The translations under genes were made by a program, and so were the position numbers. This document shows, one piece after another, positions 4,298 to 29,010 of a stretch of DNA of 33,322 nucleotides; position 1 is the first letter of the stretch; every line of letters starts with the position of its first letter. The notes under the pieces were generated by a model that saw only the letters and a list, made by a program, of their open reading frames with translations, was not told the origin of the DNA and ran no database searches. Source of the stretch: a virus. The stretch is taken from IMG/VR virus record IMGVR_UViG_3300006737_000093, positions 1 to 33,322 of that record; one strand, written 5' to 3'.

Positions 4298-4332
4298 CCA
4301 TTACCTATGTAGGAGGTAATGGGTATTTTTTT
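4298..4332 (+). terminator. Second, back-up plus-strand terminator overlapping the late gene end
   Basis: CCATTACCT (4298-4306) pairs perfectly with AGGTAATGG (4314-4322) around a 7-base loop, and seven T's occupy 4326-4332. The hairpin covers the stop codon and last codons of the opposing 1567-residue gene. The T-tract again faces plus-strand transcription. Confidence 0.7.
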
Positions 4333-7300
4333 CTTAAATATGAATCTATTTTAGATTTTAATTTTTTTCTTTGTTTAGCATTTAATATAATACCTCTTTT
4401 TTCAAATTTTTTAAGTTCTATTTCATATATCTCTTGTTTTGTTTTAGCTTTAATTTGTTTTAGTCTATTTCTTTCTTTATCATTATTTTCCATAAAATAA
4501 TACTTTAAAGTTTTACTAAAACCACCACTATCAAATTCTCTTTCCATTTGAGAAAAAAGTCCTAGAGATAAAGGATCTTTAAATATTCCTGGTAAAAATG
4601 CTTTACTAAATGCTACTTTTAATTTACTTTGACCTACATATATTCCTGTAGTATAAACATCATTACCATTTACTGATTCTTCCATAGCAGTAACAACATT
4701 ACCAAAATCTTTTAATGTTTTCCAAATAACAGGTTTTGCCTGTTCTCCTAGTTTAAACATATTTACATTATATTGATTTATATTTTCAAATAATGTATCT
4801 AATCTATTCATATATAAATTATACATTCTTCTATTTGTATCTTCATCATCTTCATCATCATCCCATAGAAGTGCTTTTACTAAAATCATTAAATATATTT
4901 TCTGAATTGCCATTGATAATTCAGACATATTAGCATTTAAATTTTTAGCATCTCTTTCAGTAAATGTATCACTAATTTTATCTCTATAATCTAAAAGTTC
5001 AGAGTTAAGTAATTTTGGAAGTTTATCACTACTTATTCCAAGTAGATTTGCTAACCTATTAACAGGCATTGACATTGATTTATGTAAAAACATTGTTGTT
5101 GAAAATAACAACTCTTTTATATAACTCATTTCTGTTCTAGGAACTACATAATCACTTTTATTACTTAACATTTTATTACTAATAAAATTCCATGACATTC
5201 CTAATGCTGCTCCTGATAATCCCCACATAGCACCACCTGTTCCTATACCTACAACACCACCAAATAATGCTGCTGTTGGTCCTGTAAAACTGTGATATCT
5301 ACCTTTAAAATCTTTTATTCCTCCTAACAGATTTGTTTGTGGTACTGCAAATCTTGTATATAATGCATTAGGTAGCCATGTTTTAAACATAATAAGCATT
5401 TTACCAAATATATTAGATTTAGCTAACATACCACGAAGTTCATTATAGTTACCATGTGCTTGTGTAATAGCTGAAGATACTCTAGATTTAAAATCATTAA
5501 ATTCTTTAGTATTCATATTTTGCCATGTAGCAATATTTTTTTCTGTATTATATGGAGGTCTAAGATTACCATTCTCATCCATAGCATCCCAAACTGATGA
5601 TGGGTTTTCACCATTACTATCTGTAATAGTTTGTTCTAATAACATAGAAATAAATACAGGAGATTGAATTACATATTCAGTTCTTCTATTTAATTCCATA
5701 GGATTTAACTTATCTAATTTAGAACCAAAATTAGATATATCAGATGATTTTTGAAGTTCATTAGCTGAATCTTGTAGAATATCTACTTTATTCATTAATG
5801 TTTTTAATTTATTAGCATCAAAAAGACTATTCTTAAATAAAAATTTACCAAATGACCTAGTAACAATACCTTTAGCTTTCCAATAAGTATCTTGTGAAAA
5901 GTAATCTCCTTGTGCAGCTAAAACTAAATTAGATGCTTCACCCTCCATATAATTAGTAATAGCAGAAGAAATATTCCAGCCTAAATTCTTAACTCTAATA
6001 GCATTTAATATACCATCTACTATACTAAATGTAGTCCAACTCTTACCTAACTTTTCTATTTTTTGTTTATACTCTTCTGCTTTTTTTGGATCTTTTTCAG
6101 AAGATATTAATTTTTCTAATGTAGATTTTAATCTTTTTTCTTCTTCACTTAATACTTTTTTAAATAACTTAATATCAAAATTTATAAGAGATGTTATTTT
6201 TTTTAAAATTCTATTAGTAGTAGATTTATCATCAGGCATAAAATCTTCTGATAAATCAGTTCCTTTAAATTCAGAAAAATTATTTAACACTACTCTTTTA
6301 TACCAATCTCTATATTGTTTAATAGCATTTTTTCTTAACTCATCTACATCACCTTCTATTTCCTTACCTGTATCTGTAGTAGCTTTTCTTTTTATAGATT
6401 CATAATGTGCTTTTAATAAATCTATAAGAGGTTTAGATTTACTTCTTGCTCTATATTTAGCAGACATTTCAGAGTACATTTTTAAAACTCTAGGTAAATC
6501 AAATGATTTGTCTTGTGCTAATCTGTGTTTTGCTACAGATTCAAAAAAAACTTTTGGAGAAAAACTTTCACCTATTCTAGTTTTAATTTCATTTTTATCT
6601 ACATATGCCATATCTAAATTATCAGCAATAACAGAAAGTGCTTCATCACTACAACTATCTACAGATATAACCCCTTTAAATAATTTCTTACCTCTTACTT
6701 CATATGCATTTTTAAATAAAGCATATTCAGCTTCTTTAGCATCATTTATTCTTGATTTATTTTGATTTAAAAAAGAAGCATTTATTTCATAATTTGTTTT
6801 GCCTGTTATATGATTTATTCTAGCATAAGTAATTCTATCTTCTACACCAGTAGTAAAATTTTCTGCTAGTCTAGTCATCATTAAAGAACTTGATTTAGAA
6901 AATTTATCTAATGGTCCTTGTGATTCTATTACAATTTCATTTAGTGCTTTTTTAAATGCTGGTATAGAGTTTACATTTAACTTATCTTGCAGTTCTACAG
7001 GAAACCCTTCTTTAATTTCTTTTAAGATATCCATCATGTTTCTATAAAAAACATACAGTTCATCTTCCTGATCTATTTTATTGAATTTTTCATCATAGTA
7101 GTTAGTATTTGAATTTGTATCTTCAACTACATATTTTTTATTTTTTACAGATAACTTTCCTAATTTTTTTCTAGGAACAGTAATATTATATTCCATATTA
7201 GGTAATATATTACCAAATGGATTACCTACTGAATTAGCATATTCAATTCCTGAAAATGGTGAATTTTCTATTACATAAGTATTATAACCTTCTTCTGTTG

Positions 7301-9008
7301 AAAATTCTTTCATTGCTTTTGCAGCATTAAGAAATGATCTTACTTTATTTTTTTGTTTATTTATTTCTTCTCTATATCCATTTTCACCAAGATTATCTTT
7401 TAATTCTTTAACATGAGCATCAATTTTAGCTTTATCAGTTTCAGTTTTAAATAAAGGATTACTACTAAACTCTTCTATAATTTCAGGTATCATACCTGGA
7501 TTTATTTGAATAGTATTTTTCTTATACCATTCTTTTCTTTTTTCTAATGCTTGTTCAATTAATTGATTTTGTTTAGCAAAATCATTCATGTTTCTTGCCT
7601 TAGCAATTAGATCATTAAATTTCTCATTCATTAATGCTCTATCATTAAAAAACTTAGTAGAATATCTTACAATTAAATCTCCTGTTTGTAAACCAAATTC
7701 ATCTACTTGTTTAAAGACAGACCAGTCTTTAGCTTTTTTTCCTATAAAAGAAAAACCTCCTGAAGATATATCATCTAATAAATACTTAGCTTTTTCAGCA
7801 AGTTCTTCAATATCACTTATTTGTTTATTTGATTTTGATAATTCTTTATTTTGATAATCTTCTAATAATGCTAATGATACTTGTGGCAATAATCCATTTG
7901 ATGAAAATATTCCCATAGTAGCATCCATTAAAAACATATCAAATACATTAGTATCTGTTCTAGATTCAGTTATTTCATTATAACTAAGATCTTCATCAAA
8001 TATACTTTTAACTTTTGTATTGTTATTAACTATTTTAGCTACTCTATCTGCTTCTAGTTTTCCAATTTTATTTCTATATTCATTTGCTTTTAAATGAAAC
8101 TCATTATATAAATCTTTTTCTTCTTTACTTATTTTATTATATAATTCTGAAATTCCAAAATCTCTACCATATATAGAATGTGGTTTATCTTTCTTCATTT
8201 CCATATGATAATAGAAATCTACAATTTGCTTTATTTCTTCTATTTCAGATGCTGTTCTTACTCCTGGTTTATTGATTAAATTTTCTAATCTAGTAAAATC
8301 TCTATCAGCAATAGATTTTAAAGCCTGTAAACTATTATCTTTTCTTAAAGAATTAAGATCATCATTTATACTATTTAAAGTATTCTTTAATCTATTTTCA
8401 ATATTAATTATTGTTTCTAGATATTTTTTTTGTTTATCTTTATCCTCTTGTGTAATAGGCTTTGTTGCTTCTACTGTTTTTCTAGCATCTTTAAGACTGC
8501 TTATTTTATTTCTAATAATATTTTTTTGTTTGTTTTTATAGTCTACAATATTACTATGACCATCTCTAGTAGCTATTTTAACTTTTTTAAAATATTCATC
8601 AGAATTATTTACTTCATAATTTATTTTACTTACTTCAGGAACAACATTAAGTAATTTTTTTATTTGATTAGGATCATTAACTGAATATGTATTGTTATCT
8701 ACATCTTGTGTATTTAAATATACAGGTTGATTATTAGGTTTAATGGTAAATTTAAACTCTGTATTATTAGTATTAGATTTGTCTAAATACAATAATACAG
8801 GTTCTCCATTTTCATCAACAGCCTTAGAATCACCAAACCAATCTTTAAATTCTTTACTATAAGTTCTTGCCCATGCAAGTAATGCTATATCTTCATTGCC
8901 AATTAAAGAGTTTAATTCTTTAAATAATTTAGATTCTTTACCATTAGCAGCACTAACTTTCTCAATAGCATTAGTTCTTTTATTTCTTATTATACATGCT
9001 TTAGCCAT
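4305..9008 (-). CDS. Large virion cargo / RNA polymerase-associated protein with membrane-active C-terminal half
   Basis: This 1567-residue protein is last in the late block, where crAss-like phages encode a large protein packaged with the virion RNA polymerase. Residues 54-78 (DWFGDSKAVDENGEPVLLYL) match the segment that leads into ART-like domains of phage polyvalent proteins, and DPNQIKKLLNV near 115 matches such a domain's end, but the core between is missing. Residues 130-1000 are largely helical and charged. A glycine-zipper hydrophobic hairpin lies at about 1244-1280 (ALFGGVVGIGTGGAMWGLSG). A hydrophobic helix near 1370 (IYLMILVKALLW) precedes an acidic DDDEDDED patch. The C-terminus is basic. 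I infer an ejected protein that helps DNA or polymerase cross the envelope. The start shares one base with the upstream stop (TAATG), so it is translated by re-initiation. The stop is TAG. Confidence 0.8.
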   Translation of the reverse strand: MAKACIIRNKRTNAIEKVSAANGKESKLFKELNSLIGNEDIALLAWARTYSKEFKDWFGDSKAVDENGEPVLLYLDKSNTNNTEFKFTIKPNNQPVYLNTQDVDNNTYSVNDPNQIKKLLNVVPEVSKINYEVNNSDEYFKKVKIATRDGHSNIVDYKNKQKNIIRNKISSLKDARKTVEATKPITQEDKDKQKKYLETIINIENRLKNTLNSINDDLNSLRKDNSLQALKSIADRDFTRLENLINKPGVRTASEIEEIKQIVDFYYHMEMKKDKPHSIYGRDFGISELYNKISKEEKDLYNEFHLKANEYRNKIGKLEADRVAKIVNNNTKVKSIFDEDLSYNEITESRTDTNVFDMFLMDATMGIFSSNGLLPQVSLALLEDYQNKELSKSNKQISDIEELAEKAKYLLDDISSGGFSFIGKKAKDWSVFKQVDEFGLQTGDLIVRYSTKFFNDRALMNEKFNDLIAKARNMNDFAKQNQLIEQALEKRKEWYKKNTIQINPGMIPEIIEEFSSNPLFKTETDKAKIDAHVKELKDNLGENGYREEINKQKNKVRSFLNAAKAMKEFSTEEGYNTYVIENSPFSGIEYANSVGNPFGNILPNMEYNITVPRKKLGKLSVKNKKYVVEDTNSNTNYYDEKFNKIDQEDELYVFYRNMMDILKEIKEGFPVELQDKLNVNSIPAFKKALNEIVIESQGPLDKFSKSSSLMMTRLAENFTTGVEDRITYARINHITGKTNYEINASFLNQNKSRINDAKEAEYALFKNAYEVRGKKLFKGVISVDSCSDEALSVIADNLDMAYVDKNEIKTRIGESFSPKVFFESVAKHRLAQDKSFDLPRVLKMYSEMSAKYRARSKSKPLIDLLKAHYESIKRKATTDTGKEIEGDVDELRKNAIKQYRDWYKRVVLNNFSEFKGTDLSEDFMPDDKSTTNRILKKITSLINFDIKLFKKVLSEEEKRLKSTLEKLISSEKDPKKAEEYKQKIEKLGKSWTTFSIVDGILNAIRVKNLGWNISSAITNYMEGEASNLVLAAQGDYFSQDTYWKAKGIVTRSFGKFLFKNSLFDANKLKTLMNKVDILQDSANELQKSSDISNFGSKLDKLNPMELNRRTEYVIQSPVFISMLLEQTITDSNGENPSSVWDAMDENGNLRPPYNTEKNIATWQNMNTKEFNDFKSRVSSAITQAHGNYNELRGMLAKSNIFGKMLIMFKTWLPNALYTRFAVPQTNLLGGIKDFKGRYHSFTGPTAALFGGVVGIGTGGAMWGLSGAALGMSWNFISNKMLSNKSDYVVPRTEMSYIKELLFSTTMFLHKSMSMPVNRLANLLGISSDKLPKLLNSELLDYRDKISDTFTERDAKNLNANMSELSMAIQKIYLMILVKALLWDDDEDDEDTNRRMYNLYMNRLDTLFENINQYNVNMFKLGEQAKPVIWKTLKDFGNVVTAMEESVNGNDVYTTGIYVGQSKLKVAFSKAFLPGIFKDPLSLGLFSQMEREFDSGGFSKTLKYYFMENNDKERNRLKQIKAKTKQEIYEIELKKFEKRGIILNAKQRKKLKSKIDSYLRKKYPLPPT

Positions 9009-12000
9009 TACTTACAAGTGTTTTCAAAGTTGTTAATTATATCTTCTATTTGCTGTTTATTAGCACCTGAAATTACAGATTCTTCTATTTCTTTACTAAC
9101 TTCTAAAGGAGAAAAATCAATTTGTGGTTGAGTTGTAGGTTGAACAGATTTAGAAATTAAACCTGTTCCTTTTGAATTTAATTCAGTAACTAAACCATAC
9201 CTAGTTTTTAATTCATTTTGTAACCATAGAGCAAATCTATTAGGTATAACAGCTAAAGAATTAGCAAAAGAATCTGGAAATATTTTAGAATCAAATTTAT
9301 CTAACTTAGCAAACTGTTCTAAATTAATTTTTTTAAACAATTCAAAATCAGCATCTGTATCTTGAAAATTAACATTCCATTGTTCTTTATTACTAGAATT
9401 TCTATTTTCTTTATAAGTATAATATTTTTTAGTTACTATACCAACAGCATTAGGGTTGTTTCTAATTATAGCAGAACCTCCTCCAACTCTAGTATCTCCT
9501 ATTGAATTTATATTTTCAGTAAATACATAAGCAGTATTAGGATTTTCTTTTGGAGAATCTTTAGTCCATTTTTTATTATTAATAGTAACTTTTTCAACTT
9601 GTGGTTGAGTAGTAGATGATTTTTCTAAACCTTTATATAAATCTAATAAGCTTTGAGCAGGTTTAATTACTGTAAGAACTTTATTAGAAGATATAGATAC
9701 TGCTTGATTATCATTTATAATAAACAAATCATTATCACCATATGTAGTAATCTTATTTTCTTGCAGTTTAGAATTACTTAGCATTCTTTTCTTATACTCA
9801 TTCTGATCATATAAGTAATAATAATTTACAAGACCTTTAGCTATTTGATCTTTATCAAATACTTGCTCATTAGAATCATTATATAATTTAGGATTATTAC
9901 TAGTAGGATTTAATATTTTATATTTTAATCCTCCAATTGTAATAGATTTTCTTTTATCTTCTATCCCTTGATCTTCTAATATTTTATTAGCAGCATTTAA
10001 TTCTGGTTGTGTACTAGAAATTTTTACACCTGTTTGTATTTCTGTAATCTTAAATAAACTATCAAATGCACTTTTTAGTACATCTACATCACCTTCTTCA
10101 AAGTTTAATTGAGATCTTACATTATTAACTAAATCAATTAATATTTCTTTAAATTTTTCTAGTAATGTCTTATTAGTATTTTTAAACTTTTGAGAATCTA
10201 GTTCTTTTATAAAATCTTCATTAGTTAAATTAGCTAAAAATTCTTTTAAGTTTGTAAATGCATATGCAACAAACTCTTTATCTTCAGTTGATAATGGTTG
10301 TTTATTTTCCCTTTTTTGTATTACAGATTTAATTAATCCTGGATTATTTTTTTCAAATTGATTTCTAGAATAATTAAATAATCTAACCAACTCTTGTACA
10401 GGACCAGGAATATTATCAATACTTTTTAATGTAGCATTTCCATTTTTGTCAAGATCTACATATTTATCTAATGTACTTGCAGTAAATGCATGTATTAATT
10501 CATGTAATATTTTTTCTGCTATTAAACTATCTGTAGCATTATTTAAATAATTTTCATCAATAATTATTTTACCAAAAACATATGCAGCTGCTGCTCCTTG
10601 TTTACTTAAATTTCCAGTTTCTAAAGAAATATTTTCAGGCAATATATCAATAAATATTTCAGCTAATTCAGATAAATATGTTTCATTATCTCCTGCTATT
10701 TTTAATAATGTATTTTTTAAATTACCATCTCTAACAGAATATGAATCACTATTTTTATCTATAGTATTAGAACTAGAAATATCTGGTTTAGAAGTTCCAC
10801 TTTTTATATTTGATTTTTCTTGTTCATTATTTTTTTCATCTAATGTTTTATCTATAGATAATACACTATCATTTTCAATATTTATATCATACTCATTAGT
10901 ACCAAAACTATTTAATACATCTGCTCTTCTATATAAATTAATACCTACTCTATAAAAAGGAACTCTTTTTCTATTAATTTTTACTTTATATATTGGATTT
11001 AAATAATCATATGTTCCTCCTTCTTGAATTAAATTGATTTGTTCTTCTGTTATATTATTAAAACTAAATTCAGTTTGATCATTATTTAATGTTATATTTT
11101 CTATATCTATTAATGGCATTTCTTCAACATTATGTTGAGCATATTGAATTTGCCATTTAGATGGAAATTTAGATTTTTCATAATCAGCTATTTGTCTTAC
11201 TTTATCATTTAACCCTAATGAGTTATTATCAATTATGTTATTAAATCCTATTTCTAATAAATATGAAACAGGAATATATTTAGAAAACTGTATAGCTTCT
11301 TGTACACCACCTTCTAACATTGAGTATGTAACAAGGTCTTGTGCTAACATTCTAGTAGTATATGGTTTTCCATTAAATTCAGGAAGAGGTAAATTCTTTT
11401 GAATAAGATTAGCTATAGAATTATATAATCTTTTTTTATCTATTTCTTGTGCTACAGCATTATTAAATTTTACTAGTGATAACCCATTATCATTATCTAT
11501 ATCATACTCAAATGATTTAATTAATGGATTTTTTAGTATTAAAGTATTTACTACTTTATTATCAGAATCTTGTAATGAATACAAATATTTAGCTAATGAA
11601 TCACCTTGTTTTTCAGTAAATAATCTTTGTCTTTCATTAAATATACTATCTGTATTGTATGCAGGTATAAGTGTACTATTAATTAATTTAATTAATTCTT
11701 TTTTAGCTTTTTGTTTTGCTTCAGTAACTGCAAATGAATTATCAAGATCTATACCTCTAGCTTCTATAATTTGATTAAATGCTTTACTCATATTTCCTTT
11801 GTCATAAGGAAAATGTTCTGACCATAAATTATATGCTGAATATAATGATGAACTAATCATTTTACCTGCTACTGTAGTAGGTATAAATACTACTGCATTT
11901 CCATCAACTTCTTTTAATAAAGTTTCTTTTTTATTATCAACTTCAGATAAAGGTTTTGATATTACTCTACCAAATAAATTTAAAAATTTACTAGGTTCTT

Positions 12001-15000
12001 TTTTAAGTACTGGTTTTTCTAAAGTAGGATCTCTAAAGAAATAAGATTCAAACTTTTGTTTTTTATCTATAACATCAAAGAAAGATTTACCTAATCCTTG
12101 TGAATCTACATTTAAAAAAGATTGTACTTTTCTTAATTCTTTACCTGCTCTATCAAATAAAATAAATTGTTGTAATGCTAAAAATTGAATTAATTCATCA
12201 TTACCATTGTTTTCAATCTGACTTTGTAATACAGTACCATTTATGTTTCTAAATTGTCCTTGTAATCTAGTTATTGCTACTTTTACTATTCTTGGATCTT
12301 GAAAATCTGGATTGTATAATTCATTATATTCTTTTACTTTTTCATTAGTAGAAACATATTTTTCTAATACATATTCAAGTGCAGCTTGTTGTTTATCAGG
12401 TACAAATTCAGCTATAACAGAATTAATATTATTAAGATAATTTACATAATCTCTAATAATAGGTTGATTTAAAAATAAACCTACAAGAGAATTACCGTTT
12501 TCATCTTTATCAAAACCCATTAAAGTCATTGCCTTATCTGCATCAAATGTTTCTTTATTTAAAAACAATTTTTCTAAGGCTTGCTCTTTAGCATTATCTG
12601 TAGCTAAGTTTTGTCTTTCTGTTAATACATCAGATATATCTCTTTTATATTTTGGATCAGATGCTACTGTTTCTTTTTTACCTAAAGTGGTACTACCTAC
12701 AATATTACCAAATCTAGCACCTTCAAGAAGAGTATTTACTTCTATTGATTCTGTTTGTTGATTTAATAAAGAGTGAAATACAACATCAATAGAATAAGCA
12801 CCAATACCTACTTTACCTGATGCACCTAAAGTTACTAATTCTTTTTGATAACTATCAGATAGCATAGTAAATGATGCCATAGAGTTAGCATCTCTTTTAG
12901 TATTGTTTGCAGAAATAACTAAGCCATTAATAAAATCAGCTTGTCCTGATGCCCAATCCATAGATAATGCTTTACTAATATCTGATTGCATTTTTGGATT
13001 AGATAATACAGAAGAATGTATTTCTACAATATTGTTTTTGTATATTTTTTTGAGTCTTTCTTTTAACTCTTTTATTCTTGCAGGATTTTTTGCTTTTTTA
13101 AGTTGTTCTATAACTTTATTAGAGTTGTTAGATATAACTTTAATATTACCATTTTGATCTACATAATGATATAAACTATAGTTAGTTTGTTTATCAATAT
13201 CAAAATCTAGACCTACCTGTGTTAAAGTGTTTCTAGGTACTATCATTAAGTCACCTGCTTCAGGTGGTAAGAAACCTACAATTTCTACATCTAACATAGA
13301 TTGATGTGCAGAAGTAGGAGTTCTAAAAGATATATTAGATAATAGTTTTTCATCAATTTTATCTTTTTTAAGAATATACCTACCATCAGATTGTTGTTCT
13401 ACATATCCATCAAATAAATCTATAAGATTACCATCATTATCTTTAAACCTAGAAGGCATTAAGACTTGTGTTTTGTGTATTATAGATCCATCTTTATTTA
13501 TTTCAACTCCTTTTACTTCACCATTAAAGTCTTTGTTTACATAAACAATTTTACTTTTATCAAAAGTTTTATTTTGTTGTTTTAATTGTTCAGGAGTTAA
13601 TTTTTTATATCCTTCAGGGGAAGCTACTACAAATGTATTACCAGGTAACTTTATTTTTGCAACTTTATTTGTAACAATAGAATTTAATAAAGATTCTATT
13701 CTGTTAGAACTAGGAGATAACCATAATGGCATTTTAAATTTATATCCTGAAATTTTACCATCTGTATATTCATAATCTATTTCAAAAGAATCTATTACTT
13801 GTTGATCATAGTTTCTTTCTATAGCTTCTTTAGTTAATAAGTCTTTAAGTTTATTAGCAGTAGATTCAAAATCTATTGGTTTATTAGTATTAATATCAAT
13901 ACCTAATTCATCATATAAACTTTCTTTTTCTACATCTAATAATTTTTCAAAGTTCTTAAAAAACTCTCTTTCTAAATCAGAACCGTTTATAGATTTGTTT
14001 CTATATACAAAACCATCCATTTCTGTTACACCATTACCAAATAATAATTTAGTAGTTTGTGTACCTTGTGATACAGTTTCTTTTTCTCCTTTATAAGGAA
14101 CTTCTTGTTGTATTCTAAAGTTATTTCTATCTAGTAATATAGATGAGTTTTCAAAACTCTGAACTAGAGTATTAACATCTTGTTGCATAATGTTTCCATT
14201 ATCATCAAACAGGTTTACAGCATCATTTACTGAACCTACTTTATTAGCAGTATTAAAAGAAAACCTTACATTTTTACCTTTTTCTTGAATTTTTTCCATT
14301 GCTTGCCTAACTACATCTAGTTGTGTACCTTGTGTAATCTGTGGTAATAATGGAATAGAAGATGATTTTATATATACACTTCTAAATAATGTTTCATTAT
14401 TTAAAGCATCCATTGTTTGTCCTGTATATACAGGTTTAATAGGCTGAAATACAAACTTAATTATTTCTTTTTCATCAGCAGACATATCTTCTAATGACTT
14501 ACCTGATTGTATTAATTTTTCTGCTTTTTTTAATAAACCAGTATCAATTAAACCAGGTTTTACTTTACCTAATTCTTCTAATACATGTAGATGCTCTTTC
14601 CATGTAGTATATTCCTGTGCATCTGTACTTTCTATTTTAAAATATGGTTTTGTATTAGGATATTGATCTAAAAATTTATCTAATTTTTCTTTATCTTTTC
14701 TTGCTTCTAAATATGCTTTTTCATCAAAAGTTTTATTGTCTAATAATTTAACTAATGTAGATAAATTATTAGCAGGAACTTCAGCATCTTTTGCTAATAT
14801 TTGAATATACTGCTCATTAGAATTTGCTAGTTTAACACCAGGAGCAATCAATGCTGCTAATCTTTTATTAATATTTTCAGCAGTTTTTCTAGATGCTTCA
14901 GTATAACTATCTGTAGATTTTGCTTTATAGTACATAGCAGGATCTCCTGCCATAGTCATAAATTGATTAGCATTAGATATTATATTATTAACTACATATT

Positions 15001-18000
15001 CTATAGATGCATATACAATTCTATCAGAATCTAATAAATTAGTATTTTCAGAAAACTTTTTTAAATAATCATTATCTATTAATTTATTTGTATAAGTTAA
15101 TGTATTAGATCCTTGTGCTTTTACAATTCCATATTCTGACCAATTAGCTAATTTATTTTTAGATAATTCACTAACAGTATCTCTAAGCATTTTAATAGAT
15201 TCTTTTTTGAACCCATCCATAAATGCAACAATTTCAGGAGTTGTTTCTTCACCATTAAGATACTTTTTAATAGCATCTTGCTGATTCATATCTTCAGCAA
15301 CATCTAATAGTGTTTGTGGATTACCATTAAAATCTACAAATATTTCATTAGCACCAGGAAATAACAAAAATGTTTTAGCACTTTGATTATATCCTTTAAT
15401 ATCAGAACCAAAATTTGTAGTTAAATAACTAATTATTCTTTCTAATTCAGGTAATATAGTTTGACTATATAATACATCAAGCATGTCATCACCAGCAACA
15501 ATGTCATTATCTAATCTAGTAAAATTATTATTTTCTTGATTGTTTTCATTAAAAGTATCATCTCTAAAATCTAAAGTAGGCATTAAATTAACAGTCATAG
15601 TAGACTTATCAGACATTGTTAATCCAAAAAATGCTGCTGTTCTAGTTCCTATACCTTTATATTGAATATCAAAATTACCTAATTTCATATCAGTATATGC
15701 ACCTAGCTTTACCATTTCTTGATCAGCATCACTAAGATCTTGGATTCTAGTACCTTGATATGATTTTTGTCCTCTTTGTTTTAAAGAAGTTAATCCTAAA
15801 TAATTTACATTAAATGAATTTCTAATTTTAGGATATTTATCTAATAAATCTAATAACATTGAATGTTTAGAAAAAGATTGTTTTAACAAATTCTTTCTCA
15901 TTGAATCATCATCAGATTTTAACTCTTCTTCTCTTTCTTTTATATAAGTTTTATATATGTATGATTGTAATAGTTTTTGATCATCTCTAAATGCAGTAGG
16001 TATAATTGAATCTGTAAATTTAGATTCTTCAAGTGCAAAGTTTTTAAGTATAGTTTGATTTAAAAAGTTGTTACCTTCTAATAACATTCCATCTTGAACT
16101 TTAATTAATTCTTTGCCTATAATAGTAATAATAGATGTTGGTGCATTACCAAATGCTCTTTTAAAATCTATTCTATTATTTTCAGAACTAATGTATATTC
16201 CATTTCTAAGAATGTTTTCAATATTAGTATTAGATAATGTTATTCCTACACTTTCTAATGCATCTAATAATTCATTAATACTATTTTCTAGATCTACACC
16301 TTTTTCTATTTTTTCAATAGTACTAAGGTTATCAATCTTTTTAAAATTACCATTACCTTGATATAAGTATGATTCATTTTTATTAACAAAAGAAAATCCT
16401 TTATCATCTTCTGATAAAACTTGTCTAGGGTTTTCCCCTTTGTCTAATTTTCTTTGTTTTGATTTTCTTACTGATGGAATATTTTTAGTATCATCAGGTT
16501 TAACTAATACTTTTCTTAGTTTGTCTGCTGCTTTATCTACAGCATCTTTATTATATACATATTCTCCATTTACATTTTTAGTTAATAAAGGAGATTGTTT
16601 AAGATTTACATTCCAACTTTTAGTAATAGATCTAGCTATATCACTAGAGTTAGTGTCCATTAGTTTTACAGATGCTTTACCATCTCTACCTATTGTAAAC
16701 ATGACAAACTTCATGTTTAATTTATTCTTATCAAAGAATGATAAAAATTGATTTTTTACTTTATCTGATATTTGATCAGATTTAAGTTTATCTACAACTT
16801 GATTTAAGAATGGATATGCTTTATAGTTATCTTCTAGTATTTTAATTTTTTCATCAAAAGAAACATTTTGATCTGATAGTAATTGTTGCAATACTTCTAC
16901 TGATGTATCTACAGGAATATTACTAGGTAATCCTAAAAACCCTCTTAGTAAATTACCTTCTTTATCTGTTTCTCTTATACCTGTAAGAAGTTCTCTTACT
17001 TCTTTAGATATAGAAGTTTTACCACCTTTTTCTAAAAATGATTTATCATATACTTCTTTTATTTCATTTTCTTCTGACTGGTCTTTATCAAAATCTTCAG
17101 GTGTTTTTAAATTTTTAATATTTACTTTTTCAAAAGCAGCATCAATAATAGATTTTTTATTATCTAAAATATTGTTTGTATACTGCATTAAAGCATTATA
17201 TTTTTCAACATATTGTTGTTTTGCTTCTTCAGATATATTAGTAAGATTGTTTATTTTATCTACCATCTCACTATTATCTTCTAATCTAGAATTTATAGTA
17301 TCTGTTAATATTCTATTTATTTCATTTACTACATCAGTACTAGATATACCTTTATCTAAATTTTTATTTATAAACAAGGTTGTTTCATAAAAAACAAAAT
17401 CAACTAAGTTGTCAAAATGATGTGGTTGTATTCCTGAATATTTATTTAAATTTTCTACAACTGCTTGTGCTGATGCTTCACTTATTTCTAATGGAGAAAA
17501 TATCATAAATTCACCATTTATATCTTCAATAATACTAAGATCTTCTTTTACTTTTCTTAATACAGCTTCTTCATTTTCAACTTCTATTTCTTCAGTTGCA
17601 TCTCTTAAAGCATTTATTTCTGCATCATATCTAGCGTTGATTTTATCTGTGCGTTTACCTTCTACTTTTTCTTGTTTAACTTCTGATAAATCATAACCAT
17701 CAGGATTTTCTTTTATATATATTGTTTCATTAGGTAATTCTTTAGGATATTTATTTTCATACTGTCCTCCAATTTCTCCATTTTTTTCTCCTTTAACTCT
17801 AACAACTTTACCATTTTTATTTTCTGAAATAGTTACTGTCCAAGTAACCCCATCTTCATCAGTAAACATTCTACTTTCTTTAGTTCCTATTTCTTCTTTC
17901 CTTCTTTCTTCTATTGCTTGTATCTGTTCATTTACATTTTCAGTAACATTTTCTTTAATTTCATTTACATTTTCTACAACTGTTTTTGTATCATCAAAAT

Positions 18001-21000
18001 CTATTTTTTCTTCTGTTGTTTCACTTGTTTCATTAATTGTTTTTTCAGTTAAAGAAATTTTAATGTTAGGAGTTGTTGCAAATGTAGTTTTAGTATTACC
18101 ATTTCTATCTTGATATGTAAATGGCTTCATATTTATTTCTAAGTTGTCATTTAGAAATGAAATATAATTAGAATTAGTTTCATTTAATTTTAAATTTTCA
18201 CTACCTGTGATTTCAATCATAGGAGTGTTTCTATTTTTTATACCTTTAAAACTTGCAGCATTTTGTAAGTTTTCAAATGTTTCAGATATTTTATTTAAAT
18301 TATCTACTACATTATCTAATGTATTAGTAAAATTATCAGTCTGTAAATCTTTTAATTTTTCAGACATTCTACCTGTAGAAAAATAAAATGGATTATCAGG
18401 CTGATTAACACCTATAGTAATTGATGATGTTAATTTAGGATTAGAACTTTTATGTTGATTTATAGAAACCAACATAGAACCTGATCTTTGATTTTTTAAT
18501 CTTTCAAAAAATTCATTATTTCCAACTTGTATATTACTTGATGTAATTGTAAGTTTAGATATAAGATCTTCTACTACTTGATTATTACTAAGATCAATTC
18601 CTTTTTCTTCTGCTAGTTTTTTAATTCTATCTAACTCTTCCATTCTAGGAAGTTTAACAACACCTTCTCTAGTATTATACTCATCTACATAAGCATTATA
18701 CATTTGTCTATAGTTATCATTATCACTATGAAAAGTGTGAAATAATAATAAGTTCTTTAAAGTTTGAGATTGATTGTTATTAAAATTAGTATTGCTTACT
18801 GGAAATAATTGAAACTGGGGTAGTGTTTCACCATCAACTTTTATAGATGTATTTGTAGGTACAGCTACATAAGTAAAGTTTTTAGCATAAGGTATAGTAT
18901 TATCTTTTAATAGTAATTGTTCAGATTTTATGTTAATAATATTACCATCATTATCATAATACTGCATTGCTCCATTTTTACCTTTTACAGCAATGTAATA
19001 ATTTTTTATTTCTGATAACTTAAAAGAATCATTACCTGCATTATTTCTAGCTGCATCTAATGTACCACTAGTTTTTTGTGTAATAACTGCTGTTAATTTA
19101 CTATTAGATTTATCAGCTTCACGCATTTTAGACCTAATATTATTTAACTTTTCTATTTGTCTATTTCTTTCTCCTATTGATAAGTTTTTTCTATTATTTG
19201 TATTTTTTAAATAAGATGGATCTTGTATAATAGCAATAACATTACCTTGATTATCATATATAGCAAGAGGCACTTTTTCCCAATATTGAGAATCTTTTTG
19301 AGATAATCCATATTTATTTATATATTCTAAAAATGATATATATTGTCCTTGTTCTGATTCATAAGTATCTGTACTAGATAATGCATTTTCATTTTTAATA
19401 CCTTGATCTAATACTTTAAAATTATTTAATTTATTTGCTGGGTATAATCCAATAGTTAATTCTTCACCTTCTAGGTAAGATTCATTGTCTAATACAAATA
19501 AAGAACCAGGAGTATCTGAACCAGGACTAAGTTCAGAATAATTATAATTACCTTTTTCATCTTTAGAAAATTGTACAAATGAAATATCAAGATCATTTAC
19601 ATCATTTGATATAACAGGTTCATTTTCTTCATTAACCTTAATTTCAATTTCATTACCAATTTCTTTTTTTATTTGAGTATCTACATTGGTATTTTGTGCA
19701 GTATTAGTATTTTGATTAGAACCAAAAATACTAATAACAAGTTCTTCTACAGTTTCTCCAAAATATTTATTATATACTGCATTAAAATCAGCATCCCCTT
19801 TGTTTGCTTTCCAACCATTAACACATAAATTCCAACTTTCTTTTAATCTATCTTTACCTATTATCTTATATACATGCTTTATATATTTTTCAAAATTAGG
19901 TTCTATACCACCTTCATCAATAGCAATTCTATCAATTAGTTGTTTAAATCTTTTAATTTGATTATCAGAAATAGTAATATCATCACTAGATAAAGGTGAA
20001 AAGTTTATTTCTCCATCTTCAAAAAATTGCTCATCAATTTCTTCATCTTGACCAAATAAACTGTTTATTAAATTTGATGTTTCTCCACTAGGACTAACTT
20101 CTTCAGATATAGTACTAGCAGCATTGTTATCATTATTAGATTCTGTTACAGCTTCAGAACCTTCTTCTTCACCAAACATTTGGTTATATATCTCATCTGC
20201 TTTTTCTTGATCATCTGATTTTTTAGATATAGTTTCTGCTTTCTTTTTATTTTCTGATTTGTTTTTATTTCTAGCAGCAATTTTATTTTGTTTGAAATTT
20301 TTCAATGTCAAACTTATCATTTCTTCTAAATCTTTATCATTGATTCTACCTTTGTATTTATCACCAAGTTTTCTTACTTGTTTCTCATACTCATTATCAT
20401 CATTAATAACAGATTTTTTATTTTGTTCACTTAGCTTTTTTATATCTGAAGTAAACTTATTTTGATAGTAAAGTTCTAGTTGAAATTCTCTAGAAACAAA
20501 TTTGTTATAATCTTTATCTATATCAGATCTTTTTCTTTTTAATAAGTTTTGACTTTCTAAAGATTTTTGCAATTGTCTAACAGAGTCTAACTTGTTAGCT
20601 TCATTTTGATAAGATTGAAATGTTTGTTTTTCTGTATCTAATTCAAACTCTCTACCTTCAATAACATCTTCTAATGAAACATCAAGTTCTGTTTCATCAT
20701 CAGGAAATATTGTATTATCTAATTCTTCTGTTTGTTTATCAAATTCACTTTGATATTCTTGTAATTTTTTTTCTTCTCTAGTTATAATTTTATCAGCATT
20801 AGTAATACTGTTTTCTAATTTATTTATATCTAAAGCATTTTTATTTTGTGAGTCATCATTAAGTTGAAGATCTGATTTTAATTTTTGTTGTTCAGATTCT
20901 AACTTTATTTTTTCTTCATCATCTGCTTCAATTAATTCTTTAGTTAATTCAGCTAATTTTTCTTTTAAAGATTTTTCTTCTGCTCTTAATTCTTTCCCTT

Positions 21001-23002
21001 CATTATTAAGAGATATTATTTCTTGTTCATTTTTAGAAATATCTTCTTTTAATGATGTTACTGTGTTTTTTGAATTTTCAGAATTTTGCGCTAGTTTATC
21101 ATTAAGTTCTTTTTTCTTTTGCTCTATACCTTGTCTTTTTAATTTATTTTCTTTAACATTAGAAACTTTTTTAGAAGGTAAGTTAGTTTCATTATTTAAA
21201 AGATCTTTTGCAGCATTAGTTCTTTGTTCAGATATTTGACTTTCTAATTCATTAATACCTTTTTGTAAAAAGAAAGAATTTGCTCTATTTTGATAAACAG
21301 ATTCTGCATTAGCATACCCTTTATCATATGCATTATCATATATTTTTTCTAACTCACCTAATTCTTTTACAATTTCTGCTGATTTTTTTCTAGTTTCTTC
21401 ATTATAATTTTTATTAGTAGATATGTTTTCATATATCTCTATTAATTTATCTGCAGTACCAGTTTTAAAATTCTGTAATGCTAAATTATATACAATAGCA
21501 TTATTTAATTCATCAGCTTCTTTATGTTTACCTTGTTTTCTAAGTTTTTCAGCTTCACCTGCAATTTCTGCTACTTTATTATATGTATTGTGTAAACCTG
21601 TAATTTGATCAAGTGGAGTATTACCATTTAATTGTGGCAATATTTTATTTGCTTGATTTATAGCATCTTGTGCTTTATCTGCTTCTTTTTTTCTTGATTT
21701 ATATGTAAGTGCATTAACAGTACCCATTTGAGTACCTGAACCTGCAACTGCCCATGCTGCACTTTCAAGAGTTTCCATGCTCATAAAATCATTCCAAGCA
21801 TCAGAAAAATTATATTTTTCTTTTTTACCATATGCTTCACCAAATTTAGAAGCATATCTTTCTATACCTGCTTCTTCAATAATTTCTTGTGCTGCTTCTG
21901 TAGCAAAATCTTTCATGCCACCTTTTTGAAAAAAACCAGCTCTTGTAACTTGTGTAGCAGCACCTCTAGTAACCATGCTTTGCATTCCTCTTAAAGCAAG
22001 CGCACTACCAGTAAGATTTAAAGCAAATGATGCTGATGCTATATTCATAGTAAGTTCAGCACCTGATAATGCATTTTTTTTAGCTTGATCTACTAAATCT
22101 TTATTATTAGAAATCCATTGTTCATCCCATAAATTTGTTAGTTGTTCAGCATATTCTTTTGCTTGATCTGTTAATTGTTCTGCAGAAACTTTATTTTTAT
22201 TATTTTCTATAAAACTATTATATGCTTTTTCATATGTTTTTTGTTTTTCATCACTATATCCTTTTTCATCAAGATAACTATTATAAACATTATCATATGT
22301 TTCTTTACCTAACTTAGCAGATATAGCTTGTGTCATTAAACCTGCACCTGCAAATTGAGAAATTCTTTTTTTAGCTTTAGTACCTAATTTTCTTGCTCTA
22401 CCTAATTTACCAAGACCTTTAAAAATACCTCTACCAATAGCAGCACTAGGACCAGCAAAACCTACCATACTACCAACTACTGATGATGATGTATTTAAAA
22501 CATAATTAAGACCATCACTAGATGTATTAATTTGATTGTCTTGTACAAATTGTTGCATGCTTTTATTAATGTCAGAATCCATTATCCAGTTTCCTACATA
22601 ATCTTCTCCATCACCAATAGTATTATCTATAAATCTAGAAAATTCATTTATAGCATTTACACCTAATACAAGAGGATTATAGTTGCCACCTGTATATGGT
22701 ATTTTATTTACTACATCTAATGTATGATGCCAATCACCAACATCTAAAGCACCTCCTACAAGATCTAATGTAGAAGAACCAATAGTAGCTACTGTATTAC
22801 TTAACCATTTAAAAGTAGCATCTAATGCACTATCTGTTTCTTTAACCTCCTCTTTTTCAGGAACATTAGAAATAGTAGGTTCTTTTTTTACAGGAGTAAA
22901 ATTTCTTATTTGAGGAAGTTTATAACCTTCTTCTTTAGTCTTAGCATTTACCTGTTTTATTTCTTTATTTAAATCTTCAAATACTTTATTGTAATCTGAC
23001 AT
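9008..23002 (-). CDS. Giant virion RNA polymerase polyprotein (crAss-type) with zincin and C-terminal accessory module
   Basis: This single 4664-residue frame carries the crAss-type virion RNA polymerase. Hydrophobic or glycine-rich segments at about 160-228 and 311-343 look membrane-active. A long charged coiled coil occupies roughly 585-935. Asn/Ser/Glu-rich linkers follow near 945-975 and 1100. A helix-beta-helix linker unit lies near 1700-1800 (AIEERRKEEI, then INARYDAEINAL). The catalytic core centres on DFDID, Asp3266/Asp3268/Asp3270, the metal-binding triad of two-barrel RNA polymerases, preceded by RTPTSAHQSM and a VPRNTLTQVGL strand, as in phi14:2 gp66-like enzymes. A zincin motif HELIHAFT starts at His4167. 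Residues about 4471-4620 hold a NPNTAYVF...VGGGSAIIRNNPNAVGIVTKK module of unknown function. It should be packaged, ejected and transcribe early genes. It is much longer than gp66 (about 2180 residues), suggesting fusion of genes that are separate elsewhere. Confidence 0.88.
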   Translation of the reverse strand: MSDYNKVFEDLNKEIKQVNAKTKEEGYKLPQIRNFTPVKKEPTISNVPEKEEVKETDSALDATFKWLSNTVATIGSSTLDLVGGALDVGDWHHTLDVVNKIPYTGGNYNPLVLGVNAINEFSRFIDNTIGDGEDYVGNWIMDSDINKSMQQFVQDNQINTSSDGLNYVLNTSSSVVGSMVGFAGPSAAIGRGIFKGLGKLGRARKLGTKAKKRISQFAGAGLMTQAISAKLGKETYDNVYNSYLDEKGYSDEKQKTYEKAYNSFIENNKNKVSAEQLTDQAKEYAEQLTNLWDEQWISNNKDLVDQAKKNALSGAELTMNIASASFALNLTGSALALRGMQSMVTRGAATQVTRAGFFQKGGMKDFATEAAQEIIEEAGIERYASKFGEAYGKKEKYNFSDAWNDFMSMETLESAAWAVAGSGTQMGTVNALTYKSRKKEADKAQDAINQANKILPQLNGNTPLDQITGLHNTYNKVAEIAGEAEKLRKQGKHKEADELNNAIVYNLALQNFKTGTADKLIEIYENISTNKNYNEETRKKSAEIVKELGELEKIYDNAYDKGYANAESVYQNRANSFFLQKGINELESQISEQRTNAAKDLLNNETNLPSKKVSNVKENKLKRQGIEQKKKELNDKLAQNSENSKNTVTSLKEDISKNEQEIISLNNEGKELRAEEKSLKEKLAELTKELIEADDEEKIKLESEQQKLKSDLQLNDDSQNKNALDINKLENSITNADKIITREEKKLQEYQSEFDKQTEELDNTIFPDDETELDVSLEDVIEGREFELDTEKQTFQSYQNEANKLDSVRQLQKSLESQNLLKRKRSDIDKDYNKFVSREFQLELYYQNKFTSDIKKLSEQNKKSVINDDNEYEKQVRKLGDKYKGRINDKDLEEMISLTLKNFKQNKIAARNKNKSENKKKAETISKKSDDQEKADEIYNQMFGEEEGSEAVTESNNDNNAASTISEEVSPSGETSNLINSLFGQDEEIDEQFFEDGEINFSPLSSDDITISDNQIKRFKQLIDRIAIDEGGIEPNFEKYIKHVYKIIGKDRLKESWNLCVNGWKANKGDADFNAVYNKYFGETVEELVISIFGSNQNTNTAQNTNVDTQIKKEIGNEIEIKVNEENEPVISNDVNDLDISFVQFSKDEKGNYNYSELSPGSDTPGSLFVLDNESYLEGEELTIGLYPANKLNNFKVLDQGIKNENALSSTDTYESEQGQYISFLEYINKYGLSQKDSQYWEKVPLAIYDNQGNVIAIIQDPSYLKNTNNRKNLSIGERNRQIEKLNNIRSKMREADKSNSKLTAVITQKTSGTLDAARNNAGNDSFKLSEIKNYYIAVKGKNGAMQYYDNDGNIINIKSEQLLLKDNTIPYAKNFTYVAVPTNTSIKVDGETLPQFQLFPVSNTNFNNNQSQTLKNLLLFHTFHSDNDNYRQMYNAYVDEYNTREGVVKLPRMEELDRIKKLAEEKGIDLSNNQVVEDLISKLTITSSNIQVGNNEFFERLKNQRSGSMLVSINQHKSSNPKLTSSITIGVNQPDNPFYFSTGRMSEKLKDLQTDNFTNTLDNVVDNLNKISETFENLQNAASFKGIKNRNTPMIEITGSENLKLNETNSNYISFLNDNLEINMKPFTYQDRNGNTKTTFATTPNIKISLTEKTINETSETTEEKIDFDDTKTVVENVNEIKENVTENVNEQIQAIEERRKEEIGTKESRMFTDEDGVTWTVTISENKNGKVVRVKGEKNGEIGGQYENKYPKELPNETIYIKENPDGYDLSEVKQEKVEGKRTDKINARYDAEINALRDATEEIEVENEEAVLRKVKEDLSIIEDINGEFMIFSPLEISEASAQAVVENLNKYSGIQPHHFDNLVDFVFYETTLFINKNLDKGISSTDVVNEINRILTDTINSRLEDNSEMVDKINNLTNISEEAKQQYVEKYNALMQYTNNILDNKKSIIDAAFEKVNIKNLKTPEDFDKDQSEENEIKEVYDKSFLEKGGKTSISKEVRELLTGIRETDKEGNLLRGFLGLPSNIPVDTSVEVLQQLLSDQNVSFDEKIKILEDNYKAYPFLNQVVDKLKSDQISDKVKNQFLSFFDKNKLNMKFVMFTIGRDGKASVKLMDTNSSDIARSITKSWNVNLKQSPLLTKNVNGEYVYNKDAVDKAADKLRKVLVKPDDTKNIPSVRKSKQRKLDKGENPRQVLSEDDKGFSFVNKNESYLYQGNGNFKKIDNLSTIEKIEKGVDLENSINELLDALESVGITLSNTNIENILRNGIYISSENNRIDFKRAFGNAPTSIITIIGKELIKVQDGMLLEGNNFLNQTILKNFALEESKFTDSIIPTAFRDDQKLLQSYIYKTYIKEREEELKSDDDSMRKNLLKQSFSKHSMLLDLLDKYPKIRNSFNVNYLGLTSLKQRGQKSYQGTRIQDLSDADQEMVKLGAYTDMKLGNFDIQYKGIGTRTAAFFGLTMSDKSTMTVNLMPTLDFRDDTFNENNQENNNFTRLDNDIVAGDDMLDVLYSQTILPELERIISYLTTNFGSDIKGYNQSAKTFLLFPGANEIFVDFNGNPQTLLDVAEDMNQQDAIKKYLNGEETTPEIVAFMDGFKKESIKMLRDTVSELSKNKLANWSEYGIVKAQGSNTLTYTNKLIDNDYLKKFSENTNLLDSDRIVYASIEYVVNNIISNANQFMTMAGDPAMYYKAKSTDSYTEASRKTAENINKRLAALIAPGVKLANSNEQYIQILAKDAEVPANNLSTLVKLLDNKTFDEKAYLEARKDKEKLDKFLDQYPNTKPYFKIESTDAQEYTTWKEHLHVLEELGKVKPGLIDTGLLKKAEKLIQSGKSLEDMSADEKEIIKFVFQPIKPVYTGQTMDALNNETLFRSVYIKSSSIPLLPQITQGTQLDVVRQAMEKIQEKGKNVRFSFNTANKVGSVNDAVNLFDDNGNIMQQDVNTLVQSFENSSILLDRNNFRIQQEVPYKGEKETVSQGTQTTKLLFGNGVTEMDGFVYRNKSINGSDLEREFFKNFEKLLDVEKESLYDELGIDINTNKPIDFESTANKLKDLLTKEAIERNYDQQVIDSFEIDYEYTDGKISGYKFKMPLWLSPSSNRIESLLNSIVTNKVAKIKLPGNTFVVASPEGYKKLTPEQLKQQNKTFDKSKIVYVNKDFNGEVKGVEINKDGSIIHKTQVLMPSRFKDNDGNLIDLFDGYVEQQSDGRYILKKDKIDEKLLSNISFRTPTSAHQSMLDVEIVGFLPPEAGDLMIVPRNTLTQVGLDFDIDKQTNYSLYHYVDQNGNIKVISNNSNKVIEQLKKAKNPARIKELKERLKKIYKNNIVEIHSSVLSNPKMQSDISKALSMDWASGQADFINGLVISANNTKRDANSMASFTMLSDSYQKELVTLGASGKVGIGAYSIDVVFHSLLNQQTESIEVNTLLEGARFGNIVGSTTLGKKETVASDPKYKRDISDVLTERQNLATDNAKEQALEKLFLNKETFDADKAMTLMGFDKDENGNSLVGLFLNQPIIRDYVNYLNNINSVIAEFVPDKQQAALEYVLEKYVSTNEKVKEYNELYNPDFQDPRIVKVAITRLQGQFRNINGTVLQSQIENNGNDELIQFLALQQFILFDRAGKELRKVQSFLNVDSQGLGKSFFDVIDKKQKFESYFFRDPTLEKPVLKKEPSKFLNLFGRVISKPLSEVDNKKETLLKEVDGNAVVFIPTTVAGKMISSSLYSAYNLWSEHFPYDKGNMSKAFNQIIEARGIDLDNSFAVTEAKQKAKKELIKLINSTLIPAYNTDSIFNERQRLFTEKQGDSLAKYLYSLQDSDNKVVNTLILKNPLIKSFEYDIDNDNGLSLVKFNNAVAQEIDKKRLYNSIANLIQKNLPLPEFNGKPYTTRMLAQDLVTYSMLEGGVQEAIQFSKYIPVSYLLEIGFNNIIDNNSLGLNDKVRQIADYEKSKFPSKWQIQYAQHNVEEMPLIDIENITLNNDQTEFSFNNITEEQINLIQEGGTYDYLNPIYKVKINRKRVPFYRVGINLYRRADVLNSFGTNEYDINIENDSVLSIDKTLDEKNNEQEKSNIKSGTSKPDISSSNTIDKNSDSYSVRDGNLKNTLLKIAGDNETYLSELAEIFIDILPENISLETGNLSKQGAAAAYVFGKIIIDENYLNNATDSLIAEKILHELIHAFTASTLDKYVDLDKNGNATLKSIDNIPGPVQELVRLFNYSRNQFEKNNPGLIKSVIQKRENKQPLSTEDKEFVAYAFTNLKEFLANLTNEDFIKELDSQKFKNTNKTLLEKFKEILIDLVNNVRSQLNFEEGDVDVLKSAFDSLFKITEIQTGVKISSTQPELNAANKILEDQGIEDKRKSITIGGLKYKILNPTSNNPKLYNDSNEQVFDKDQIAKGLVNYYYLYDQNEYKKRMLSNSKLQENKITTYGDNDLFIINDNQAVSISSNKVLTVIKPAQSLLDLYKGLEKSSTTQPQVEKVTINNKKWTKDSPKENPNTAYVFTENINSIGDTRVGGGSAIIRNNPNAVGIVTKKYYTYKENRNSSNKEQWNVNFQDTDADFELFKKINLEQFAKLDKFDSKIFPDSFANSLAVIPNRFALWLQNELKTRYGLVTELNSKGTGLISKSVQPTTQPQIDFSPLEVSKEIEESVISGANKQQIEDIINNFENTCK

Positions 23003-28500: not shown

Positions 28501-29010
28501 TTTTTTAGCAAGTGCTGCTAATCCTTTATTAGGATATTCTACTTTACCACCTTTTTTAAATTGCTTTGTAGCACCTGTAAACTGTGGTCTTAATCCTTCA
28601 AAGTTATCTCCACCACCCATAGCTACATCCATAAGGTTTTGTACAGCAGCACTAGATAAACCTATAGTAGCACTTGCTCCAAATTGACCAAGTGCATTTC
28701 CTAAATTAGAACCTTGTAAGTTAGATAAAAAGTTATTGGATTCTTTTTGAATAGTATTACCAATATTTTCAGTACCACCAGTATCAAATCCTTGTAGACC
28801 AAGTGCTAATTGCATTGCTTTAACCTGTTGATTATTTGCATTATTAATAACAGATCCTATGGGATTTATCATTGTACCATTAGCATACTTTTTAATAGAT
28901 TCATTAGCTCTTTTTATAGTTCCTCCATTATCTAAGCTAGTATATTCACTTATATAATTGTCTAAAGGTTTCTTATATTTTTTACCTTTATATTTATTCT
29001 TTTTCTTCAT
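25540..29010 (-). CDS. Internal cargo/ejection protein with repeated GG-x-I motifs and beta-strand-rich insert
   Basis: This 1156-residue protein is first after the muzzle-like gene, the place of the main cargo protein in crAss-like phages. It begins very basic (KKKNKYKGKKYKKP). Eleven short GG motifs (such as NGGTIKR at 29, DGGMVEV at 344 and KGGTIKL at 600) are scattered through residues 28-660. Residues 188-330 are alternating polar/hydrophobic strands separated by turns. A block around 347-400 (VEGGEAYETPNGE, GPDHSEGGI, VPEGTMVYS) recalls modules common in Bacteroidota phage virion proteins. FDVVD occurs three times (509, 696, 715). A basic segment lies near 545-585. The C-terminal 250 residues have a hydrophobic Gly/Ala stretch and a long Gln/Ala/Arg coiled coil ending in KKAQAEAKE, resembling podovirus internal ejection proteins. 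I infer capsid cargo ejected with the DNA. Confidence 0.8.
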   Translation of the reverse strand: MKKKNKYKGKKYKKPLDNYISEYTSLDNGGTIKRANESIKKYANGTMINPIGSVINNANNQQVKAMQLALGLQGFDTGGTENIGNTIQKESNNFLSNLQGSNLGNALGQFGASATIGLSSAAVQNLMDVAMGGGDNFEGLRPQFTGATKQFKKGGKVEYPNKGLAALAKKAPDVVEQIMKKKNGGPIKGSVDFTGTGASGNVSTKVGNLDLNLSGDIDLLNYGLLANSYYDEEGKFIKPNPTINPNLNVGASYSDKGTDANINYDIANKNLSAGFNRKGLGAYLNIPMSDPNMTTADLSYNTQIKPGQNLGINVGLSKDPTANITYTSDLQKRKQQPKKLFRDGGMVEVEGGEAYETPNGEVGEFVGPDHSEGGIKMEVGDENSKMTNDIVPEGTMVYSKRIKKDGKDMAKRKLQREKYIASLEKKLEENPMDPLLLATYNRAKETMAIADGADERIQEEVKAMENIEGLEKYLAKYGGMMKKNDNTAYSHGKRKMMYPDGGMIKELEFDVVDEFGKGGYIVRKSNARKGKTHVVIRKSDGKKKYFGYPGMGTRGKSKHGKKAFYARHAKNLKNNPFFRAYARSTWEMGGMITDEMYAKGGTIKLDPAKKGTFKALATKYDMSMDKLAMDMKKNPDKYSPEARKKANFYRNFVMEMGGKIDLDDIPMYQTGTTIYPPVNPLLVQAAAQQIRENQGFDVVDMNDPYKGTSIAGQQFDVVDYGNIPDIGASQRANEITPKILLESAGESQSGEGDMDLPLNLPNLNPQIPTGKQGTMQGLDSYLNIAGLQGLDPNMMVPSNDLLSTQKVDAIVDPITKKVRSKLASEKTQEQLLKKLAPDNQRTNDLTNERFLLTNLMPNLFKGLKEVDEYKIPGTPTTLSKKDDIDTTKKDSTDEETIVASKLVADPTSGEYDLTLGDYLGLAGVGVSGMGPLATTLASRLTDRPNVNMMKNVGQGALSIMEGQKGFLGQQFNLQEAKIGEMARNATRRYQGSARSINQARSLGQMSDMQAQKMLQGAYANYAQQMLGVESQIANLEFQADKIRSAGEQARDLADRQDVDNFFSNLNQDIVNLGTAMQAGAKALNAKELDKQINAIMPMLSPYGIAVRKDGKGGYEYYSTVTGKTKTETEIQEYLQEAKRNAQLKVDVKKAQAEAKE

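Follow-up and report, generated by a model that had tools for sequence, protein, structure and literature searches.

Cysteine-flanked gene breaks in the virion RNA polymerase chain of crass phages

Organization of the locus

The window analyzed here is the whole 33,322-nucleotide stretch of the IMG/VR viral record IMGVR_UViG_3300006737_000093. The features relevant to this study are the following.

4305..9008, minus strand: module C (1567 aa), which corresponds to phi14:2 g065 and crAss001 gp49 minus the zincin part
8994..8996, minus strand: C5 of module C (MAKAC...), a joint cysteine predicted to form a disulfide with C4663
9008..23002, minus strand: giant A+B fusion, 4664 aa, with an A-like N-terminal part, catalytic module B, zincin, DUF7831 and a C-terminal joint cysteine
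9014..9016, minus strand: joint cysteine C4663, the second-last residue of the giant, kept in L002, L003 and Fpv1
9383..9580, minus strand: DUF7831 module (residues 4475-4540; Pfam E 5.9e-9), an accessory domain adjoining the B/C joint
10133..10732, minus strand: zincin domain (residues 4091-4290; HELIH at 4167-4171, third ligand E4254 in NLKEF), from alignment and model
10748..17473, minus strand: catalytic module B (residues 1844-4085), a profile match homologous to phi14:2 g066 (PDB 6vr4)
13193..13207, minus strand: DFDID catalytic motif (residues 3266-3270), D-x-D-x-D invariant in 38 aligned relatives
17474..23002, minus strand: A-like part (residues 1-1843), counterpart of phi14:2 g067 and crAss001 gp47 by position and length only
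23006..25495, minus strand: cysteine-free cargo-type protein of 829 aa that lies upstream of the giant, role suggested by synteny
25540..29010, minus strand: 1156-aa cargo-type protein without cysteine (phrog_15413, unknown function), role suggested by synteny
29042..33064, minus strand: crassvirus muzzle protein (PF25731, E 2.9e-19) with 16 cysteines, which identifies the virus type

The giant gene at 9008-23002 is, as the original prediction had it, a single frame of 4664 codons. It lies on the minus strand and runs from an ATG start without internal stop (table 11), and this open frame is far above chance expectation at about 25% GC. PHROG 16227 (phrog_16227, a family of 4401 positions) covers its chain, and the closest sequences are those of L002, L003 and Fpv1 gp33, with 4919, 4611 and 4401 aa; L002 shares 61% identity with the polymerase part. 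The DFDID and HELIHAFT motifs lie where they had first been read, at residues 3266 and 4167, the second 901 residues downstream of the first, and the NPNTAYVF motif taken to mark a C-terminal module is found at residue 4487, inside the Pfam DUF7831 match. A coiled coil had also been proposed; the stretch 601-1000 is very rich in charged side chains and has little glycine or proline, so that the support for it is confined to composition. The A profile gave no match to the divergent A part of the giant, and module B begins at residue 1844. A Pfam Rep_fac_C match at residues 2036-2088 (E 0.06) fell below the family cut-off and was dismissed as chance. The genes of the giant and of module C share a single base, the third of the stop codon of the former and the first base of the latter. 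On the plus strand, the window also holds two adjacent features, a fragment resembling spore photoproduct lyase (97-627, E 3e-16) and a NifU-like Fe-S protein (701-931, E 8e-19).

The polymerase module

When queried against the PDB, the polymerase profile (A5, built from 38 relatives) had 6vr4 as its sole match, with 1160 bits. A single-sequence phmmer search of the PDB with the window's polymerase missed 6vr4, giving only a weak match to HslU, and the profile recovered it. The AlphaFold model of residues 2396-3560 (mean pLDDT 83.6, pTM 0.82) likewise returned 6vr4 as the single significant Foldseek match (E 6e-43, TM 0.70), and the region around residue 3266 thus takes the RNA polymerase fold of that structure. 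The likeness to the two-barrel fold of 6vr4 is that of the profile and Foldseek matches taken as a whole. The gene of the giant also adjoins crassvirus muzzle and cargo genes. The identification as a virion-type RNA polymerase is thereby borne out: by profile and fold the giant is a crass-type enzyme of the phi14:2 gp66 type, and its packaging in the virion is predicted from the literature on phi14:2 and crAss001, in which such polymerases are packaged and transcribe the early genes. An N4-type virion polymerase, with a T7-like single-subunit domain, is ruled out by the two-barrel type of the fold.

A conserved chain with movable gene breaks

We compared the order of these modules in phi14:2, crAss001, Suoliviridae, Intestiviridae and environmental contigs. 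A common chain A-B-C emerged, in which A is the N-terminal part, B the catalytic two-barrel RNA polymerase and C the associated subunit. The order is conserved while the gene boundaries vary, and the layouts A|B|C, AB|C, A|BC and ABC were all found. That the chain is divided among separate genes in several crAss-like phages, as the original prediction also stated, holds for phi14:2 (g067|g066|g065) and crAss001 (gp47|gp50|gp49); Suoliviridae cr1_1 and cr50_1 have AB|C, and Intestiviridae A|BC.

The closest described relatives illustrate these shifts. Module B of gp66 from the Cellulophaga phage phi14:2 (6vr4) is homologous to that of the window over the whole core, with the same invariant D-x-D-x-D, and both phages share the gene order beside the muzzle and cargo genes. 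However, phi14:2 encodes A, B and C apart, whereas A and B are fused in the window, and the zincin lies on C in phi14:2 (near the N-terminus of g065, at residue 245) but on B in the window. As the zincin ends the giant here and lies near the start of g065 there, the gene break has shifted relative to the domains. L002, L003 and gp33 of the Flavobacterium phage Fpv1 (phrog_16227) share the A+B+zincin fusion with the window, together with a single C-terminal cysteine and an N-terminal cysteine on the next protein; their C-terminal accessory part differs, and DUF7831 is not in all of them. In p-crAssphage (BK010471), on the other hand, the fusion is between B and C, A carries the zincin and the cysteine pair is at the A/B joint. 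The GenBank names are an RNAP catalytic subunit fused to an unknown RNAP subunit (gp44) and an RNAP-associated protein fused to a zincin protease (gp45).

Accessory domains were seen at the A/B and B/C joints in the junction segments of 115 loci or parts, namely DUF7831 (7 segments), NADAR, ART-PolyVal, a circularly permuted YpsA SLOG, SF1 helicases, PP2C and a zeta-toxin-type kinase. These are types typical of polyvalent or counter-defence proteins, and the DUF7831, NADAR, ART-PolyVal, SLOG and helicase domains fit the polyvalent-protein theme.

Cysteines at the gene breaks

The 4664-residue giant has two cysteines, of which one is the penultimate residue. Its N-terminal end and the C-terminal end of the 1567-aa protein have none, and only the two ends that face each other at the B/C break carry one (C4663 and C5); the A/B joint is here a peptide bond. 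The same arrangement is seen in phi14:2, where g067 has one cysteine, its last residue (C1797), g066 has two, the third and the second-last residues (C3 and C2179), and g065 has one, the third (C3). L002 has one cysteine in 4919 residues, again the second-last.

To quantify this pattern we surveyed 209 loci. Dereplication at 90% of the B core reduced them to 162, and the counts exclude TAG-recoded phages, of which cr273_1 (L014) is an example. In the scans of viral contigs, single gut sequences used as queries gave little or nothing and alignment queries worked. Cysteines were scored within the first 12 or last 16 residues of each protein, and narrower limits gave the same result. In the dereplicated set, a cysteine was present at 363 of the 376 ends that face a gene break (54/56 for the A C-terminus, 93/100 for the B N-terminus, 114/117 for the B C-terminus and 102/103 for the C N-terminus), versus 1 of 227 free ends (1/47, 0/99, 0/41 and 0/40 in the same order). 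The pooled Fisher p, uncorrected for kinship, was 4e-149. Unrelated ORFs of at least 300 aa from the same loci had terminal cysteines in 7/204 (N-terminal) and 29/204 (C-terminal) cases. Where a joint is fused, the C-terminal cysteine of the upstream module and the N-terminal cysteine of the downstream one vanish together, and all ten complete A-B-C fusions (4627-5711 residues) have no cysteine at all. The window phage fits this rule of a chain jointed by cysteines, with cysteines at the ends that face the break and none at the free ends.

The remainder of the chain is poor in cysteine. Among chain proteins with a single cysteine, that residue is terminal in 136 of 140, against 2.2 expected. 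Internal cysteines amount to 0.96 per 1000 residues in chain proteins and 4.9 in other ORFs, and fused junctions, with 0.28 per 1000, are below the internal value of 1.0. A cysteine-poor chain is not universal, as some gut lineages (L069, L085, L185) have many internal cysteines. In phage N4 (L210, 4524-15026), the injected 3500-aa virion polymerase and the adjoining gp51 and gp52 lack cysteine altogether, so cysteine avoidance reaches beyond crass phages.

Three other origins of the pattern were examined. Chance, or ends that merely tolerate cysteine, are ruled out by the near absence at free ends. A cause at the nucleotide level, such as overlapping start and stop codons or regulatory sequence, is ruled out since the rule is still kept in crAss001, DAC15 and cr128_1, where A is on the opposite strand, and elsewhere across intergenic gaps that vary from tens to hundreds of nucleotides. 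Kinship was controlled with a FastTree tree of 157 B cores without their termini, on which some branches are long and the numbers approximate. Fusion state changed at least 15 times at A/B and at least 10 times at B/C on this tree. Independent pairs on well-supported branches numbered 7 for A/B (p 0.016) and 6 for B/C (p 0.031), and none went against the rule. For instance, among sisters whose B cores are 55% identical, L031 and L032 have B and C fused without joint cysteines, and L038 is split, with one protein ending in NPLTC and the next starting with MKSC. The 13 joint ends of 376 without a scored cysteine include four that look like start-codon choice (L010, L056, L073, L085) and two, L063 and L140, in which the cysteine is 17 and 23 residues inward of the end; others look truncated or lack explanation (L050, L055, L066, L166, L202, L208).

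The zincin domain and cleavage of the chain

The zincin site recognized in the original prediction has all the expected ligands (H4167, E4168, H4171 and E4254), and the H, E, H, E and F positions are invariant in 26 divergent copies. With HExxH and an invariant downstream glutamate, as in gluzincins, this is a genuine metalloprotease-like domain whose protease activity is putative. The structure model has a confident core, and its best Foldseek matches were minigluzincins at E 0.35, too weak for naming a family. The zincin profile (A6) matched phage internal virion or ejection proteins in the PDB (9sfn_G and 8vb2_A, the latter gp48) at 2e-8 to 4e-8; this likeness suggests that zincins are common in ejected proteins. 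Across phages the domain occupies two fixed sites beside joints, just before or just after B, and it ends up on whichever side the gene break leaves it, often on C or A and thus off the polymerase polypeptide.

It had been proposed that the zincin cleaves the giant, ahead of packaging or inside the head, and separates the polymerase from the other parts to allow passage through the tail. Besides the invariant ligands and the likeness to ejection proteins, the constant position beside a module joint would be sensible for module release, and such processing was proposed in 2017 for polyvalent proteins and N4-type giants (PMC5512222). However, HExxH is absent from seven of the ten complete A-B-C fusions of 4,627-5,711 aa (L068, L071, L075, L090, L152, L153 and L157), and many phages carry the zincin and the polymerase on different polypeptides, so a cut for tail passage was not supported and self-processing is made less likely. 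Moreover, ArdC and TraC1, which carry such domains, are transferred full length (PMC5512222). Cysteines on both sides of the genetic cuts point to selection for a continuous chain and not for cutting, and phages with split genes would not need their parts rejoined if a cut chain were what is needed. Cleavage before ejection is consequently rated unlikely, and any action of the zincin most probably follows delivery.

A predicted disulfide link between modules

Given that the joint cysteines vanish together on fusion, they appear to be partners, paired tail to head, and with one cysteine per end and no other conserved neighbour a disulfide is the simplest meaning. We consider it likely, from comparative sequence data, that tail-to-head disulfides join A, B and C into one covalent cargo string that is reduced in the host. 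Specifically, the C-terminal cysteine of each upstream product would bond with the N-terminal cysteine of the downstream one, turning separate gene products into a single string of roughly 5,000-6,000 residues, which would be pulled through portal and tail, extended and in fixed order, before the reducing host cytoplasm releases A, B and C. In the window phage, C4663 of the giant would pair with C5 of the 1567-aa protein, A and B being peptide-bonded already. On balance, and with somewhat less confidence, we favour the view that these disulfides replace peptide bonds post-translationally, keep the order of ejection and are undone by the reducing cytoplasm of the host. The near absence of cysteines from the rest of the chain may then reflect the avoidance of wrong disulfides while it is unfolded.

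A reducing cytoplasm disfavours disulfide formation, so the bond would have to arise late, at lysis or within the virion. Disulfides were seen in the tail barrel and portal vertex of crAss001 virions, which suggests that the virion is oxidising enough, and partial unfolding of the cargo during ejection has been proposed for the same phage (PMC10172136). Genes annotated as thioredoxin or thioredoxin-like are found near the polymerase genes of L007, L008, L013 and L015, which may or may not matter.

A cargo protein upstream of A in three Intestiviridae phages (L007, 2551-5124; L008, 490-2763; L010, 456-2129) has a single cysteine near its C-terminus, and no N-terminal cysteine partner was seen for it in these phages, which counts against the disulfide reading. 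By position it is of the portal-bound C1 type, and it perhaps forms a homodimer or bonds to a different protein.

Two other roles for the terminal cysteines seem improbable, to about the same degree and more so than zincin cutting. They might be metal ligands that form a zinc bridge between proteins, with A, B and C still joined end to end. The same comparative data, with cysteines on both partners, would fit such a bridge, but one cysteine per end provides too few ligands for a stable site unless copies share, and the terminal sequences have no conserved histidine or second cysteine adjoining the joint one. Alternatively, the cysteines might serve recognition or assembly, docking C-terminus to N-terminus for co-packaging in equal numbers with no lasting covalent bond. 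By mass spectrometry, gp47, gp49 and gp50 each appear to be present in about six copies (PMC10172136), and gene fusion would secure stoichiometry too; a docking site should, however, show conservation beyond a single residue, and the cysteine alone is kept while its neighbours vary.

Novelty and implications

Giant polymerase fusions are known, GenBank having relatives of 4,401 aa, and fusions of up to ~6000 aa are a hallmark of crass phages (PMC10136315; PMC10770324). The idea of zincin self-processing has also been published (PMC5512222). Polyvalent proteins with zincins and N4 gp50 are, like the chain described here, injected giants that combine polymerase or effector domains with a zincin. 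N4 gp50 is free of cysteine as crass chains are, but it is a single-subunit T7-type polymerase, and joint cysteines have been described for neither system. What appears to be new is the A-B-C modularity with shifting gene breaks and a cysteine pair at each break. We found no report of the cysteine rule in the open literature searched, and an earlier remark may exist elsewhere.

Short-tailed phages eject megadaltons of enzyme, in order and without misfolding, through tail constrictions under 50 angstrom (PMC10172136). The cysteine rule indicates that selection keeps the continuity of A-B-C and not a particular gene layout or cleavage. If the modules are indeed joined by disulfides, the cargo would have the order A-B-C in one direction or the other, and the near absence of cysteines in injected proteins would be explained. 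Two disulfide-linked tryptic pairs are predicted for crAss001, one between the gp47 C-terminal CNS and the gp50 N-terminal CITTNSTIEELAAK (monoisotopic 1812.823 Da) and the other between the gp50 C-terminal ICGANTLYEL and the gp49 N-terminal CAIIPQVR (1992.017 Da). Terminal cysteines also offer a cheap test of cargo partnership in uncultured phages.
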